From positions 1 through 34,894 of the forward strand of contig JAAXXR010000015.1 in the NCBI GenBank assembly GCA_013334335.1: a stretch of 34,894 bases of DNA, written 5' to 3'. The stretch is from Chlorobiaceae bacterium. GTDB lineage: Bacteria; Bacteroidota; Chlorobiia; Chlorobiales; Chlorobiaceae. This document shows, in pieces, positions 27,876-33,380 of the stretch (positions are counted from its first letter, which is position 1; every line of letters begins with the position of its first letter). A program made the translations under genes and the position numbers. The notes below the pieces were generated by a model, which searched no databases, was not told where the DNA came from, and was given only the letters and a program-made list of their open reading frames with translations.

Positions 27876-28331
27876 ATGAGTTCGATAACTTTCATGATGA
27901 AACGATTTTTTTTCATCGTCACGTTCATGACGCTGGCGGCCTGTTCATCCCGGAACACGGTGACAACGTCCCGGAGCCCTTCGTTGTACAGTACCTGGTG
28001 GCGGGTTGTCGAAGTGGATGGGCGGCAGCAGGATTTTCTCGCCGGCCAGAAGATGGATGTATTCATCACGCTCTCTGTCCAGGGGCGCCTGAACGCTTCC
28101 GGTGGGTGCAACAACATTGGCGGAAGCTTCGTCCGGTCAGGGAGCTCCATCGGATTCAGCCCCAAAGTGGCGACCAGAATCGCCTGTCCACCGGTGGTCC
28201 TGTCGAGGGAGCGGCTATTCGTCGACGCGCTCCGGAAGGCCTCGTCATTCCTCATCGAAAACCGGGAGCTCAGGTTGCTCGACCGTTCCGGCAATGAGGT
28301 GCTGAAATGCATCGCCGTCAGGCGGCCATGA
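27876..28331 (+). CDS. META-domain (HslJ-like) lipoprotein
   Basis: 151 residues from 27876. A short signal peptide (MMKRFFFIVTFMTLAACSS) ends in an LAAC lipobox with C23, so the protein should be lipidated and exported. The mature part is one META domain: STWWRVVEVDG at about 39-49, GCNNIGGSFVRSG, and ATRIACPPVVLSRERLFVDAL, the usual GGCN-x-GxY and CP/M-ExxFxxAL blocks. Related HslJ proteins are linked to heat-shock or novobiocin tolerance, but the family role is mostly unknown. An ACGGAG element 11 bases upstream supports 27876; ATG at 27894 or 27897 would also give a working signal peptide. Confidence 0.85.
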   Translation: MSSITFMMKRFFFIVTFMTLAACSSRNTVTTSRSPSLYSTWWRVVEVDGRQQDFLAGQKMDVFITLSVQGRLNASGGCNNIGGSFVRSGSSIGFSPKVATRIACPPVVLSRERLFVDALRKASSFLIENRELRLLDRSGNEVLKCIAVRRP

Positions 28332-28380
28332 AATTCCGGGCCAGCCGTCGGCAGACGGAACGCACACCCCGTTTTCCCGG

Positions 28381-28410
28381 TTGACAAGAGAGTTGCAGCA
28401 GGAACATTAT
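28381..28410 (+). promoter_or_regulatory. Candidate promoter of the leuA leader
   Basis: TTGACA at 28381-28386 is a perfect -35 word; CATTAT at 28405-28410, 18 bases on, is a 4-of-6 match to the -10 consensus. The surrounding 28400-28425 is AT-rich, in contrast to the coding DNA around it. A transcript starting near 28418 would carry the whole leader peptide and terminator described below. Confidence 0.55.
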
Positions 28411-28464
28411 TTTATATATTGTTGTATTGACCTCCCAATCGATGAATCCGGTACGGAACCTTGT

Positions 28465-28557
28465 ATGAACGCATTCGACAACATGCTTTTTCTGCTAAAC
28501 CTAAGGCTTTCAGGCTTATGGGCACTGAGGGAAGGTACGTTGCGTTTCATACCGTAA
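28465..28557 (+). CDS. leuL: Leu-rich leader peptide of leuA attenuator
   Basis: A 30-codon frame begins MNAFDNMLFLLNLRLSGLW. It has 8 Leu codons of 30, six of them within 12 codons (28486-28518), using mixed codons including rare-looking CTA and TTA. A weak GGAA lies 6 bases before the ATG. The peptide sits between the candidate promoter and an intrinsic terminator, upstream of leuA, which is the arrangement of translation-coupled leucine attenuators: ribosome stalling at Leu codons when charged tRNA-Leu is scarce would prevent termination. A second frame from a TTG at 28461 to 28670 overlaps it but has no such features. Confidence 0.75.
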   Translation: MNAFDNMLFLLNLRLSGLWALREGTLRFIP

Positions 28558-28596
28558 ATGGTCAGGAATACAGTTTGACAGCCGCCAACCTCTCAG
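28507..28596 (+). promoter_or_regulatory. Mutually exclusive leader RNA pairings (segments 1:2 and 2:3)
   Basis: Segment 1, CTTTCAG at 28507-28513 (inside the Leu codon run), can pair with segment 2, CTGAGGG at 28525-28531, using two G-U pairs. Segment 2 can instead pair with segment 3, CTCTCAG at 28590-28596, using one G-U pair. Segment 3 overlaps the upstream arm and loop of the terminator, so 2:3 would act as antiterminator. A ribosome stalled on the Leu codons would cover segment 1 and free segment 2. Pairings were found by eye. Confidence 0.55.
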
Positions 28597-28612
28597 GTTC
28601 GGTGGCTTTTTT
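28581..28612 (+). terminator. Attenuator terminator in the leuA leader
   Basis: GCCGCCAACCT at 28581-28591 pairs with AGGTT at 28595-28599 and GGTGGC at 28601-28606, with a 3-base loop, one bulged C and one G-U pair, and is followed directly by six T (28607-28612). It stands 60 bases before the leuA start and 24 bases after the leader peptide stop, so it would end transcription before leuA unless prevented. Confidence 0.8.
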
Positions 28613-28671
28613 CGTTTCAGGGCTTTTCTATCCACAAGAGATCTACAAGAGAAAAAGGAGATGCAGTTAAC

Positions 28672-30354
28672 ATGAAAAGGATGAATTACAGGAAATACGC
28701 CCCATATCCGGCAGTCGACATTCCCGACCGCACCTGGCCCTCCAACCGGATCACCAAAGCCCCGATCTGGAGCAGCGTCGATCTCCGGGACGGCAACCAG
28801 GCGCTTCCGATCCCCATGAGCGTCGACGAGAAGGTAGCCATGTTCAAGCTGCTGGTCTCCATCGGCTTCAAGGAGATCGAAGTCGGGTTTCCTTCGGCGT
28901 CGGCCACCGAATTTGCCTTTGTGCGCAGGCTCGTTGAAAACCAGCTCATTCCCGACGACGTGACGATCCAGGTGCTGACCCAGTCGCGCGAACACCTCAT
29001 CCGGAGGTCCTTCGAGGCGATCCGAGGGGCGAAAAACGCCATCGTCCACCTCTACAACTCCACCTCCCGCCAGCAGCGCGACGTGGTGTTCAGGATGAGC
29101 CGCGAAGAGATCCGCGAGATCGCCATTTCGGGCACCAGGCTCGTCAGGACCCTGAAGGAGGAGAGCGGCAACCCCGGCATCCGCTTCGAGTACAGCCCCG
29201 AGAGCTTTACCGGCACGGAGCTGGACTATGCGCTCGAGGTGTGCCACGCGGTCATGGATACGTGGGGCGCCACGGCGGCCAACAAGGTGATCCTGAACCT
29301 TCCGTCGACTGTTGAACTTTCGATGCCGAACATCTATGCTGACCGCATCGAGTGGTTCTGCCGCAATATCAAGGACCGTGAAGCGGTGCTCATCAGCGTT
29401 CACGCCCATAACGACCGCGGAACGGCGGTCGCCACCTCGGAACTCGCCATGCTTGCCGGTGCGGACCGCATCGAAGGCGCGCTGTTCGGCAACGGCGAGC
29501 GGTGCGGCAACATGGATATCGTGACCATGGCCCTGAACCTCCTGACACAGGGGATCGACCCCGAACTCGATTTCTCCGACATGCCGGCCGTTCGCGAGAC
29601 CTATCGCAGGTGTACCCGCATGGATATCCATCCGCGCCACCCATACGCCGGTGAACTGGTCTACACCGCCTTCTCCGGCTCGCACCAGGATGCCATCAGC
29701 AAGGGGATGAAAGCGCACTCGCTTTCGGCCGAAGGGCTGTGGGACGTGCCGTACCTGCCGATCGACCCGCAGGATGTCGGCTGTACCTACGAGGCGATTG
29801 TCCGGATCAACAGCCAGTCCGGCAAGGGCGGTATCGCGTATGTGCTCGACAAGGAGTACGGGATCCAGATCCCGAAATGGATGCAGCCCGACTTCGGCAA
29901 CGTGGTGCAGGAGGTGACCGACAGGACCGGTGAAGAACTGACCCCGGGCCAGATCCACGAGCTCTTCCAGAAGGAGTATATCGGGGCAAAGAGCCCGTAC
30001 TTGCTCAAGAAGTGCCAGATCAGCTGGGACGATGCCGATCCGGACGCCAACGACGAGGTGGCGACCACCATCAACTGCTCGGTCCAGTCCTCAGAAGGGG
30101 AGATCGCGTTCAAGGCGACGGGCAACGGCCCGCTTGACGCCTTCGTTCGCGGCATGGCGAGCCATACCGGGCTCGACTTCCATGTCGACGAGTACGCCGA
30201 GCACGCCATCGGGCACAGTTCCGACGCCCTGGCCATCGGGTATATCAGGATCGCCTGCGCCGACGGCCGCATCTCCTGCGGTTCGGGCATCGATTCGAAC
30301 ATCAGCCTCGCCTCCATCAAGGCGATCGTCAGCGCCATGAACCGTCTGCATTGA
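28672..30354 (+). CDS. leuA: 2-isopropylmalate synthase
   Basis: 560 residues, the length of the longer LeuA form. It joins acetyl-CoA and 2-oxoisovalerate in the first committed step of leucine synthesis. The HMGL-like TIM barrel begins with SSVDLRDGNQAL (R39, D40), then EIEVGFPSAS, the metal ligands in HAHND (H244, H246) and GNGERCGN. A linker and the C-terminal LeuA dimerisation/allosteric domain (about 430-555) follow, which in the family binds leucine for feedback inhibition. AGGAG at 28656-28660 lies 11 bases before the ATG at 28672; ATG at 28681 is an alternative. It is controlled by the leader described above. No other leucine gene adjoins it. Confidence 0.95.
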   Translation: MKRMNYRKYAPYPAVDIPDRTWPSNRITKAPIWSSVDLRDGNQALPIPMSVDEKVAMFKLLVSIGFKEIEVGFPSASATEFAFVRRLVENQLIPDDVTIQVLTQSREHLIRRSFEAIRGAKNAIVHLYNSTSRQQRDVVFRMSREEIREIAISGTRLVRTLKEESGNPGIRFEYSPESFTGTELDYALEVCHAVMDTWGATAANKVILNLPSTVELSMPNIYADRIEWFCRNIKDREAVLISVHAHNDRGTAVATSELAMLAGADRIEGALFGNGERCGNMDIVTMALNLLTQGIDPELDFSDMPAVRETYRRCTRMDIHPRHPYAGELVYTAFSGSHQDAISKGMKAHSLSAEGLWDVPYLPIDPQDVGCTYEAIVRINSQSGKGGIAYVLDKEYGIQIPKWMQPDFGNVVQEVTDRTGEELTPGQIHELFQKEYIGAKSPYLLKKCQISWDDADPDANDEVATTINCSVQSSEGEIAFKATGNGPLDAFVRGMASHTGLDFHVDEYAEHAIGHSSDALAIGYIRIACADGRISCGSGIDSNISLASIKAIVSAMNRLH

Positions 30355-30480: not shown

Positions 30481-30915
30481 ATGCAGGAACTCTACCAACG
30501 ACTCAGGGAGTCCGGCCTGAAGCTTACGCCGAGGCGAAAGGCGATCATCGACCTTTTTGCAGGCCACGAGGGCAGGCTGTCGCCCAGGGAGGTACAGTCC
30601 CTGCTGAGCACCACCGTTGACAGATGCGGCCTTCCCGGGGTGTATCGCAACCTCGAGGCCCTGGCAGACTGCGGTGTGCTGTTTCGCGTCGCCGGTTTCG
30701 GGCGCGAGCGCAGCTATGCGTTTTGCGCTCATGGCGACCACGCGGATGAGCATCACCACCACATTGTCTGCGTGTCGTGCGGTCGCTCCGCCGTCGTCGA
30801 GGAGTGCGGCTATCGGGCCGGCATGATGATCGGGGGCTTCCGGCTCGTTGACCATGTGGTCCAGCTCCAGGGCTTGTGTGACGGGTGCATGAATTCATCG
30901 AGGAGGAATTCATGA
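30481..30915 (+). CDS. zur: Fur-family metalloregulator, probably Zur
   Basis: 144 residues. The winged-helix DNA-binding half (about 1-75) has LKLTPRRKAIIDLF and GVYRNLEALADCGVL. The dimer/metal half holds HGDHADEHHHHIVCVSCG, with C97/C100, and a second pair C133/C136 (LCDGC), the structural zinc site of the family. Placement directly before znuA, znuC and znuB points to Zur; Fur or PerR function cannot be excluded from sequence alone. The start ATG at 30481 fits the family N terminus but has no Shine-Dalgarno sequence; the palindromic operator occupies that space. Its stop overlaps the znuA start by 4 bases. Confidence 0.88.
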   Translation: MQELYQRLRESGLKLTPRRKAIIDLFAGHEGRLSPREVQSLLSTTVDRCGLPGVYRNLEALADCGVLFRVAGFGRERSYAFCAHGDHADEHHHHIVCVSCGRSAVVEECGYRAGMMIGGFRLVDHVVQLQGLCDGCMNSSRRNS

Positions 30916-31805
30916 CAATACGGTTGACCGCGGGACGTATGATGGCGATCCTGCTCTTTTTCTCGCTACTCACCGGCTGCGTCCGGCAGGAGAGCTCCGA
31001 AAAGGTGCGGGTGGTGGCATCCATCGAACCGCTCGCCTGGTTCGTCGAACGCATCGGGGGCGAGCGGGTGTCGGTGTCGGTCATGGTTCCTGCCGGAGGC
31101 GACCCACACAGCTACGAACCTACGCCGAAACAGATGGCCGGGCTCGCGTCGGCCGACCTGTTCGTCAAGGCGGGTTCGGGCGTCGAGTTCGAGCTGAACT
31201 GGATACCCCGCATGCTGGAACTCAACAGGGGGCTTCGGATCTGCGACGCTTCGACCGGGGTCCGGTTGCTCCCGATGGGGGAGCATGAAGCCGATGGCGA
31301 CGGGCACCACCACGAGGGCGGGCCCGACCCGCACTTCTGGCTTTCGCCGGCCAATGCCCGGCTGATCGCCGTGAACATCGAACAATCGCTTGTGGCGGCC
31401 GATCCTGCCAACCGCGACCTCTACGCGGCCAACCGTCTTCGGCTCGACGGGGAGCTTCGGGCGCTCACGGCCGAGCTCGCCGGACGTCTCGGTGCTGTCC
31501 GGAACCGGAAATTCATCGTGTTCCATCCGGCCTGGGGGTATTTCGCCCGCGACTTCGGGCTCGAACAGATCGCCGTGGAACGGGAAGGTAAGAGCCTCAC
31601 GCCGGTGCAGATGGCCAGTGTGATCCAGACGGCAAGGGACCAGGGCATCCGGACGGTGTTCGTCTCTCCGCAATTCAGCAGCGCCCAAGCCGAGTCGATC
31701 GCCAGGGATATCGGCGGCAGGACGGTGCAGATCGACCCCTTGTCGAGGGATTACGGAAACAACCTCCGGCACGCGGCCGAATCCTTCGTGAGGGAACTGC
31801 GATGA
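30912..31805 (+). CDS. znuA: Zinc ABC transporter substrate-binding lipoprotein
   Basis: 297 residues from 30912, supported by GAGGAGG ending 6 bases upstream and an ATGA overlap with the regulator stop; nine extra codons upstream at 30885 are not needed. The lipobox LTGC gives lipidated C23. Metal ligands of the cluster A-I family are visible: GGDPHSYEPTP, DPHFWLSP, FHPAWGYFA and a C-terminal IDPLSRDYGNN Asp. A short His-rich loop (HEADGDGHHHEGG) lies before the second His, as in zinc-specific ZnuA; manganese proteins usually lack it. It delivers zinc to the ZnuBC permease. Confidence 0.92.
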   Translation: MTIRLTAGRMMAILLFFSLLTGCVRQESSEKVRVVASIEPLAWFVERIGGERVSVSVMVPAGGDPHSYEPTPKQMAGLASADLFVKAGSGVEFELNWIPRMLELNRGLRICDASTGVRLLPMGEHEADGDGHHHEGGPDPHFWLSPANARLIAVNIEQSLVAADPANRDLYAANRLRLDGELRALTAELAGRLGAVRNRKFIVFHPAWGYFARDFGLEQIAVEREGKSLTPVQMASVIQTARDQGIRTVFVSPQFSSAQAESIARDIGGRTVQIDPLSRDYGNNLRHAAESFVRELR

Positions 31806-32572
31806 GCCGGGAGGTCATCACCTGCGACCGGCTCGGCGTGGTGCTGGGTGGCGCTCCGGTCCTCGACCGTCTCTCCCTCACGGTTTACGAGGGCGACTAT
31901 ATGGCTGTCCTCGGCCCCAACGGGGGAGGCAAGACCACCCTGCTCCGCGTAATCCTCGGGTTGCAGCAGCCCTCCTCAGGCACGGTCACGGTGTTCGGCG
32001 CAGCACCCGGCCACTTTCCGGGCCGTATCGGCTATGTGCCGCAACGGCTCTTTTTCGACCGGGATTTTCCGATCAGCGTCCACGACGTCGTCCTGATGGG
32101 GCGATTGCCGAAATGTCGTCCAATGCGGCACTACGGGCGTGACGACCGGCGGAAAGCGGAAGAGGCAATCGAAACGGTCGGCCTGACGCGGCTGACGCAC
32201 AGCCGGGTCGGCACCCTCTCCGGCGGCGAGCTTCAGCGGGCCCTGATCGCCCGCGCCCTTGCGGGGGATCCGGAGCTGCTGCTGCTCGATGAACCGACGG
32301 CAAGCGTCGATCCGGAGATGAAGACCACGATCTACGACCTGCTCGACACCTTGAAAGAGCGCCACACCATCGTCCTGGTCACGCATGATACCGGCACGGT
32401 CGGCCATTCGGTATCGCGAGTCGCCTGCCTGAACTGCACGCTTGGCATGCAGGGCCCGGCCTCGTCGCTGGATACGGCGGTACTCGAAAGCCTCTACGGC
32501 CACCCGGTCGAGGTCGTGCTGCATCATGAGCACCACTCTGGATCATCCAAACCGGACGATCGCCATGCCTGA
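31802..32572 (+). CDS. znuC: Zinc ABC transporter ATP-binding protein
   Basis: 256 residues with a complete nucleotide-binding domain: Walker A GPNGGGKTT at 38-46 (K44), Q-loop PQR at 80-82, signature LSGGE at 139-143, Walker B LLLLDEPTASVD with D163/E164, and the switch His in VTHDTG. The SVHDVVLMGR block is typical of the ZnuC/MntB/TroB branch. The start overlaps the znuA stop by 4 bases and the end overlaps znuB. The last about 40 residues are less conserved. Confidence 0.94.
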   Translation: MSREVITCDRLGVVLGGAPVLDRLSLTVYEGDYMAVLGPNGGGKTTLLRVILGLQQPSSGTVTVFGAAPGHFPGRIGYVPQRLFFDRDFPISVHDVVLMGRLPKCRPMRHYGRDDRRKAEEAIETVGLTRLTHSRVGTLSGGELQRALIARALAGDPELLLLDEPTASVDPEMKTTIYDLLDTLKERHTIVLVTHDTGTVGHSVSRVACLNCTLGMQGPASSLDTAVLESLYGHPVEVVLHHEHHSGSSKPDDRHA

Positions 32573-33380
32573 CATCCTCCACTTCGAATTCATGCGCAAT
32601 GCCCTTCTGGCGGCAATCCTGTCGAGCTTCGCCTGCGGGGTCATCGGCACCTACGTGGTGGTCCGGAAGATCGGCTCCATCAGCGGAGGTATCGCCCACA
32701 CCGCCTTCGGTGGTATCGGGCTCGGCTACTACCTCGGTGTGAACCCGCTCTTGGGGGTCATTCCCGTCAGCCTCCTGGCCGCCATCGGCATCGGCCTGCT
32801 CACCCGAAAGGCCAAGGTCGCGGAGGATACGGCCATCGGCGCCTTCTGGGCGACCGGCATGGCCGCAGGCGTGATCCTGATCGGGTTGACGCCCGGGTAC
32901 GCCCCGAACCTCTTCAGCTACCTGTTCGGGAACATCCTCACGGTACCGCGCTCCGACCTCCTGCTCATCGTCCTGCTCGATTTCTTGATCGGCGCCCTGG
33001 TGTGGCTGTTCAGCAAGGAGTTTCTCGCCGTCTCCTTCGACGAGGAGTACGCCAGGGTGTCGGGGCTGAAAACGGTCATGTTCGACCTGCTCATGCTCTC
33101 GCTGATCGCATTGACGGTGGTCATCATGGTCCGGGTCGTGGGTATCGTCCTGGTGATCGCGCTCCTGACCATACCCGCCGCCGTGGCGCGGATGTTCAGC
33201 CGTACCCTGCGCGGCATGATGGCGCTCGCCGTGCTGTTTTCAATCCTGTTCAACCTCGTCGGACTCTGGCTCTCATGGGAGTTCGACGTGGCCTCCGGCG
33301 CGGCGGTTATCCTCGTGGCAGCGTTCGTGTTCCTGGTCACGGGGGTGGCGACCGCGCTCTTCCGGACGAAAAGCGCCTGA
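32565..33380 (+). CDS. znuB: Zinc ABC transporter permease (ABC-3 family)
   Basis: 271 residues with about 7-8 membrane segments. MRNALLAAILSSFACGVIGTYVVVRKIGSISGGIAHTAFGGIG (motif blocks around 10-52) is the standard N terminus of ZnuB/TroC permeases, and DEEYARVSGL marks the coupling region toward the ATPase. I chose the ATG at 32565, overlapping znuC by 8 bases, since the family begins there; ATG at 32526 is possible. It forms the zinc channel across the inner membrane. Confidence 0.93.
   Translation: MPDILHFEFMRNALLAAILSSFACGVIGTYVVVRKIGSISGGIAHTAFGGIGLGYYLGVNPLLGVIPVSLLAAIGIGLLTRKAKVAEDTAIGAFWATGMAAGVILIGLTPGYAPNLFSYLFGNILTVPRSDLLLIVLLDFLIGALVWLFSKEFLAVSFDEEYARVSGLKTVMFDLLMLSLIALTVVIMVRVVGIVLVIALLTIPAAVARMFSRTLRGMMALAVLFSILFNLVGLWLSWEFDVASGAAVILVAAFVFLVTGVATALFRTKSA

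Follow-up and report, generated by a model that had tools for sequence, protein, structure and literature searches.

The leucine leader of enteric bacteria (leuL) combines a short Leu-rich leader peptide, the mutually exclusive pairings 1:2, 2:3 and 3:4, and an intrinsic terminator located before leuA, whose product catalyses the first committed step of leucine synthesis. Terminator-based ribosome-mediated attenuation has been described mostly from Proteobacteria. The abstract of Vitreschak et al. 2004 reportedly refers to candidate attenuators in 'Bacteroidetes/Chlorobi'; if that work covers C. tepidum leuA, the novelty of the present analysis lies in the family-wide and cross-phylum evidence only. 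Our literature search on Chlorobi, Chlorobium and Chlorobaculum found no attenuation study or experimental work for the lineage.

Before it added a Firmicutes case of its own, a 2010 genome survey counted leader peptides as known only in Proteobacteria and Actinobacteria (PMC2965389), and a 2013 survey of Rfam motifs raised the possibility that such attenuation motifs originated in gamma-proteobacteria and were very rarely transferred (PMC3766115). Outside Proteobacteria, the Staphylococcus aureus ilv-leu operon carries a Leu/Ile-rich leader before a terminator and is leucine-responsive by experiment (PMC5794164). Streptomyces leuA also has a Leu-rich leader with alternative structures, in which mutations departed from the predictions of classical attenuation (PMC1262725). 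As this actinobacterial LEU element warns, a leader rich in Leu need not pass the classical tests.

Here, we analysed a window of 34,894 nt from a Chlorobiaceae bacterium, in which an attenuator-like region (28428-28612) lies upstream of leuA. It resembles enteric leuL (RF00512) in its Leu-rich leader, predicted exclusive helices, terminator and downstream leuA. Unlike leuL, the Chlorobiaceae leader serves a yeast-type leuA without leuBCD after it, and adds a helix (P0) closing the leader start on the stop region. A Leu-rich leader upstream of a terminator is shared with S. aureus ilv-leu; there, however, the antiterminator model spares the terminator stem and pairs with the poly-U (PMC5794164), whereas in the present leader the partner of segment 2 is the 5' arm of the terminator. 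The actinobacterial LEU element likewise has a Leu-rich leader before leuA and alternative structures, but it involves a pseudoknot and a Leu run that pairs to the Shine-Dalgarno sequence of leuA (PMC1262725), in contrast to what appears here to be a terminator-based switch. From comparative and folding evidence, we consider it highly probable that the region is a ribosome-mediated transcription attenuator through which leuA expression would follow leucyl-tRNA charging.

The leuA locus

The features of the region are listed in Table 1. The next gene after leuA is of the FUR family, and leuBCD are not found there. This FUR-family regulator is followed by a zinc/manganese-type ABC set (binding protein, ATPase and ABC-3 permease; 30481-33380), together a probable Zur-type metal uptake cluster. 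The genome itself (2.18 Mb, 130 contigs) has a single gene each for a yeast-type LeuA and a citramalate synthase, plus a more remote paralogue at C22 that we infer to be probably a homocitrate synthase.

Table 1. Features of the leuA region, with positions in the window
Feature	Position	Strand	Support
META-domain gene, 5' neighbour of the leader interval	27876-28331		
Promoter, TTGCAG (28393-28398), 16 nt, TATATT (28415-28420)	28393-28420	+	19/20 genus members
P0 5' arm, over the leader start codon	28463-28473	+	partner swap z -6.3; slide test
Leader ORF, 30 codons, stop TAA 28555-28557	28465-28557	+	Leu-rich homologues in 75 Chlorobiaceae
Segment 1, Leu codon run, contains CTTTCAG 28507-28513	28480-28518	+	duplex with segment 2, -15.5 kcal/mol (window)
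Segment 2, CACTGAGGGAAGGTACGTTG	28523-28542	+	folding and covariation
P0 3' arm, right before the leader stop	28541-28552	+	partner swap; slide test
Segment 3, ACAGCCGCCAACCTCTCAGGT, common to antiterminator and terminator	28578-28598	+	folding and covariation
Intrinsic terminator, 3:4 hairpin and six T	28580-28612	+	-17.0 kcal/mol, z -3.2
leuA, 2-isopropylmalate synthase, TIGR00970 yeast-type, 560 aa	28672-30354	+	E 4e-222, above curated cut-off

A LeuA match was found in all 86 family genomes, of the yeast type in 84 of them, and the LeuA of the window groups among Chlorobiaceae in the tree. The Chlorobiota origin that the preliminary description had only supposed is therefore borne out by both the host, a member of Chlorobiaceae, and this placement. 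Two genomes from another family of the order (G086 and G087; loci L191 and L192) carry a bacterial-type LeuA (TIGR00973) in place of the yeast type, which raises the possibility that Chlorobiaceae obtained their yeast-type leuA by transfer, as a replacement.

A conserved promoter and Leu-rich leader

Upstream regions of 20 genus members were aligned over the interval between the -10 box and the ribosome site of leuA, and 60 more were taken from a second genus. A promoter of the form TTG[CG][AG]G-N16-TATATT is kept in 19 of the 20 genus members (those with readable upstream DNA), from which transcription is expected to start near 28427. A TTGACA-containing promoter had been proposed in the preliminary description. 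This hexamer does exist (28381-28386), with CATTAT 18 nt away as judged by consensus, but it occurs at the same place in only 3 of the 20 genus members; since it is not conserved, it was ruled out as the main -35 element in favour of the conserved TTGCAG-N16-TATATT.

The leader frame described earlier, 30 residues with 8 Leu, is present as MNAFDNMLFLLNLRLSGLWALREGTLRFIP, with Leu at codons 8, 10, 11, 13, 15, 18, 21 and 26. By itself, such a frame would be no more than moderately surprising, since dinucleotide shuffling of 28400-28671 produced one equally rich in 38 of 2000 cases. The case for a Leu attenuator thus rests on conservation. Over 75 aligned leaders, Leu content averages 7.5 per leader (27%), Leu positions are preserved via differing codons, and indel lengths within the Leu run are divisible by three. 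Codon choice also differs between the leaders (CTT 181, CTG 169, CTA 89, TTG 60, CTC 60, TTA 12) and five leuA genes (CTG 101, CTC 62, CTT 19, TTG 5, CTA and TTA zero). The leaders are biased towards Leu codons scarce in leuA, as for CTA (89/571 against 0/187), a preference that would fit a sensor of tRNA charging.

A covariance model (R1) was built from the alignment of 75 leaders. It matched directly before leuA in 79 of the 86 family genomes, and the same anatomy is found before leuA in 79 of the 83 Chlorobiaceae genomes with readable upstream DNA. In the own genome of the window, R1 gave a single match (28462-28609, E 1.9e-16) and no further leader copies. None of 12 genomes from other families of the class was matched. 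Second, weak matches occurred in a few genomes, some of them to the terminator region on the opposite strand. Among 395 genomes of the phylum searched, weak matches outside the class (G363, G261) proved on inspection to be ordinary terminators or to lack a Leu leader.

The seven family genomes without an R1 match comprise two in which no yeast-type leuA was detected, one contig end and four leaderless leuA genes, all in the second genus (G022, G031, G062 and G085; loci L078, L079, L084 and L097). Three of these four retain the terminator; the leaderless genes represent a natural loss of the switch. In G031 and G062 (L084, L097), the terminator stands alone between a tRNA-like sequence and leuA. 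This arrangement, together with the frequency of equally Leu-rich shuffles, would suit a constitutive terminator of an upstream transcript accompanied by a chance Leu-rich ORF, with no regulation. Against this, the Leu-rich leader, segment 2 and the terminator co-occur in the 75 aligned leaders, Leu positions are kept through different codons and pairing through double changes (see below). Conservation thus largely refutes such a chance association, which we regard as very improbable.

Alternative pairings and tests of their covariation

Both pairings of the preliminary description were recovered, each of 7 bp with G-U: CTTTCAG (28507-28513) with CTGAGGG (28525-28531), and the latter with CTCTCAG (28590-28596). 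The 2:3 helix is in fact about twice as long as the earlier 7 bp (~28524-28541 with 28578-28597, -16.8 kcal/mol). The terminator with six T also held, with a stem at 28580-28607 (closing A-U pair included) that scores well below shuffled sequences (Table 1) and a T run at 28607-28612. A consensus terminator scan missed this hairpin, perhaps due to a one-base bulge; folding detected the same hairpin. In the window, P0 pairs GTATGAACGC with GCGTTTCATAC. Its counterpart in many members of the genus Chlorobaculum is GGTCAAC with GTTGACT; many second-genus leaders have ACGAAC with GTTCGT.

For covariation tests, structures were drawn from one of the aligned sequences. The 2:3 helix, written with 16 pairs, had 83.6% paired cells, compared to 39.6-65.9% when slid by 1-3 columns, and a covariation score of 0.226 against at most 0.133 slid. 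It contained 33 double-change cells versus 20.6 in shuffles, none of 500 shuffles being as high, a count that ignores shared ancestry. Paired cells also exceeded slid controls for the terminator (88.3% against at most 56.6%) and P0 (71.2% against at most 45.5%). Swapping partners between species weakened 2:3 (z -4.3), 3:4 (z -8.6) and P0 (z -6.3), where z-scores likewise ignore shared ancestry and are not to be read as probabilities. Raw counts of double-change pairs and pair types were not above shuffled or slid controls for 2:3, P0 and the terminator. As judged by the alignment, 2:3, 3:4 and P0 keep pairing through double changes, and their covariation is a feature of the aligned sequences, as are the parts themselves and their conservation. 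Related leaders, whose comparison the preliminary description had suggested, thus keep both the Leu codons and the alternative stems. For 1:2, a duplex is predicted in the leaders, yet the partner swap gave no covariation signal (z -0.3), perhaps since segment 1 is the Leu codon run.

These pairings bear on another explanation, in which the leader responds to leucine in a non-classical way, the peptide or its translation acting on leuA otherwise, as argued for the Streptomyces leader. Actinobacterial leuA has a similar Leu-rich leader, and S. coelicolor mutants are inconsistent with classical attenuation (PMC1262725); P0, placed over the leader start codon, could add a translational layer. However, where the LEU element pairs its Leu run with the leuA Shine-Dalgarno sequence, a strong intrinsic terminator stands here between leader and leuA, ~60 nt before the gene, and its 5' arm covaries with segment 2. 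We therefore find a non-classical leader improbable.

A riboswitch or T-box in place of ribosome-mediated attenuation is extremely improbable. Several Bacillota relatives of this leuA do carry, as seen by eye only, a T-box-like GGTACCGCGGG and a terminator upstream. However, the window has no Rfam match at gathering score, and a relaxed threshold brought up nothing of relevance. RF00512 itself gave no gathering-score match to the window or the own genome, and a search of 28380-28700 that admitted E values up to 10 did not find it either. Moreover, what is conserved is a translated reading frame rich in Leu, in which Leu-run indels respect the triplet.

Folding with a masked ribosome

To return to ribosome-mediated attenuation, leaders were folded with 28 nt masked as the ribosome and the transcript cut before segment 4. 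In the window, 2:3 is predicted to form (10.6-11.9 bp) with the A site on Leu 8, 13 or 15; stalls at Leu 10 and 11 give little 2:3 and favour 1:2 in the model, and 2:3 is essentially absent without a ribosome. In 74 of the 75 leaders, some stall positions were predicted to allow 8 bp or more of 2:3, and in 68 fewer than 4 bp formed when the ribosome sat at the stop. The outcome without a ribosome was mixed, 38 of 75 leaders showing fewer than 4 bp. Leu codons were enriched at antiterminating stalls (384/560 against 739/1456 for other codons; p 4.5e-13, an indicative value as codons are non-independent). The classical layout claimed earlier, with a Leu leader, 2:3 exclusive with 3:4 and a terminator, is thus supported, the folds giving the expected logic in nearly all leaders.

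For a ribosome placed at the stop, 2:3 in the window itself came to 0.5 bp in one set-up and 5.9 bp in another, which used different segment boundaries and another transcript start. In its subclade (L001, L004, L005, L007 and L008), the stop lies 36 nt past the start of segment 2, compared to 24 in most leaders and 7 in some, and the model left 2.3-12.8 bp of 2:3. A stop-bound ribosome would therefore cover segment 2 only partly and block it more weakly, so that termination in this subclade would lean on ribosome release and on refolding of 1:2 and P0. In seven other leaders (L055, L056, L057, L072, L002, L003 and L006), the stop falls inside the start of segment 2 (+7), an independent stop placement.

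At full-length equilibrium, most leaders tested favoured the terminator even when stalled. Thus, the switch must be decided during RNA synthesis, as in the classical model.

Proposed mechanism

Taken together, these results indicate that the leucine attenuator before leuA is genuine and probably functional. Transcription would start near 28427, and a ribosome would translate the 30-codon leader. When charged tRNA-Leu is scarce, it would stall at the Leu codons before segment 2 (Leu 8, 13 and 15 in the window model), covering segment 1 and disrupting P0. Segment 2 could then pair with segment 3 before segment 4 exists, and RNA polymerase would read into leuA. When leucine is plentiful, the ribosome would cross segment 2 to the stop, 3:4 would form and transcription would end at 28612. 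With no ribosome, P0 and 1:2 would hold segment 2; by hiding the leader start codon, P0 would also limit further rounds of leader translation. Ribosome stalling, the response to leucine and the function of P0 are inferred here.

Related leaders beyond Chlorobiaceae and the ilv operon

Leu-rich leaders with terminators were also found at the nearest LeuA relatives outside Chlorobiota, in Elusimicrobiota (L139), Omnitrophota (L142, L145), FCPU426 (L144) and Spirochaetaceae of Spirochaetota (L141), and at more distant relatives in SAR324 (L146) and Nitriliruptoraceae (L153). R1 matched L145 (6.9e-6), L139 (7e-5, the leader lying ~590 nt upstream of the leuA match), L144 (1.9e-4) and L142 (5e-3). 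In a LeuA tree built by a quick method, the leader-bearers from outside Chlorobiota adjoin Chlorobiaceae; a 46-row set with 96 support includes L139, L142, L144 and L145. It also includes Omnitrophota L143, for which no leader was found within the 350 nt scanned. Since related leuA genes in other phyla carry leaders and adjoin in the tree, the leader seems to move, or to be inherited, together with the gene. More tentatively, and with the balance of probability slightly against it, the leaders could form a distinct undescribed attenuator family, inherited or transferred with one yeast-type leuA branch across Chlorobiota, Elusimicrobiota, Omnitrophota, FCPU426 and Spirochaetota, and adding a start-codon-hiding helix to the classical design.

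A separate observation concerns the ilvDBNC-leuBC-cimA operon, upstream of which a Val/Ile-rich leader was seen in nearly all of 30 Chlorobiaceae examined. In the own genome (L200, contig C117, ilvD start 17498, minus strand), the leader ORF lies ~118-226 nt upstream and reads ...GIDSVVPVLSVVQVVIPVS; in relatives (L204-L233), it reads ...GITLTVSVPLVHVRIIVA. A GGCTTCGGGACAGGCAGGCC-like block and a T-rich stretch follow the ilv leader in the sequences inspected. This leader is a candidate second attenuator.

Kept in nearly all sequenced green sulfur bacteria, the Chlorobiaceae leuA leader is for that reason well supported, by comparative evidence, as a new instance of an established mechanism. 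The family-wide, covarying Leu attenuator of Chlorobiota, the leaders in other phyla and the ilv leader argue for a wider spread of attenuation.
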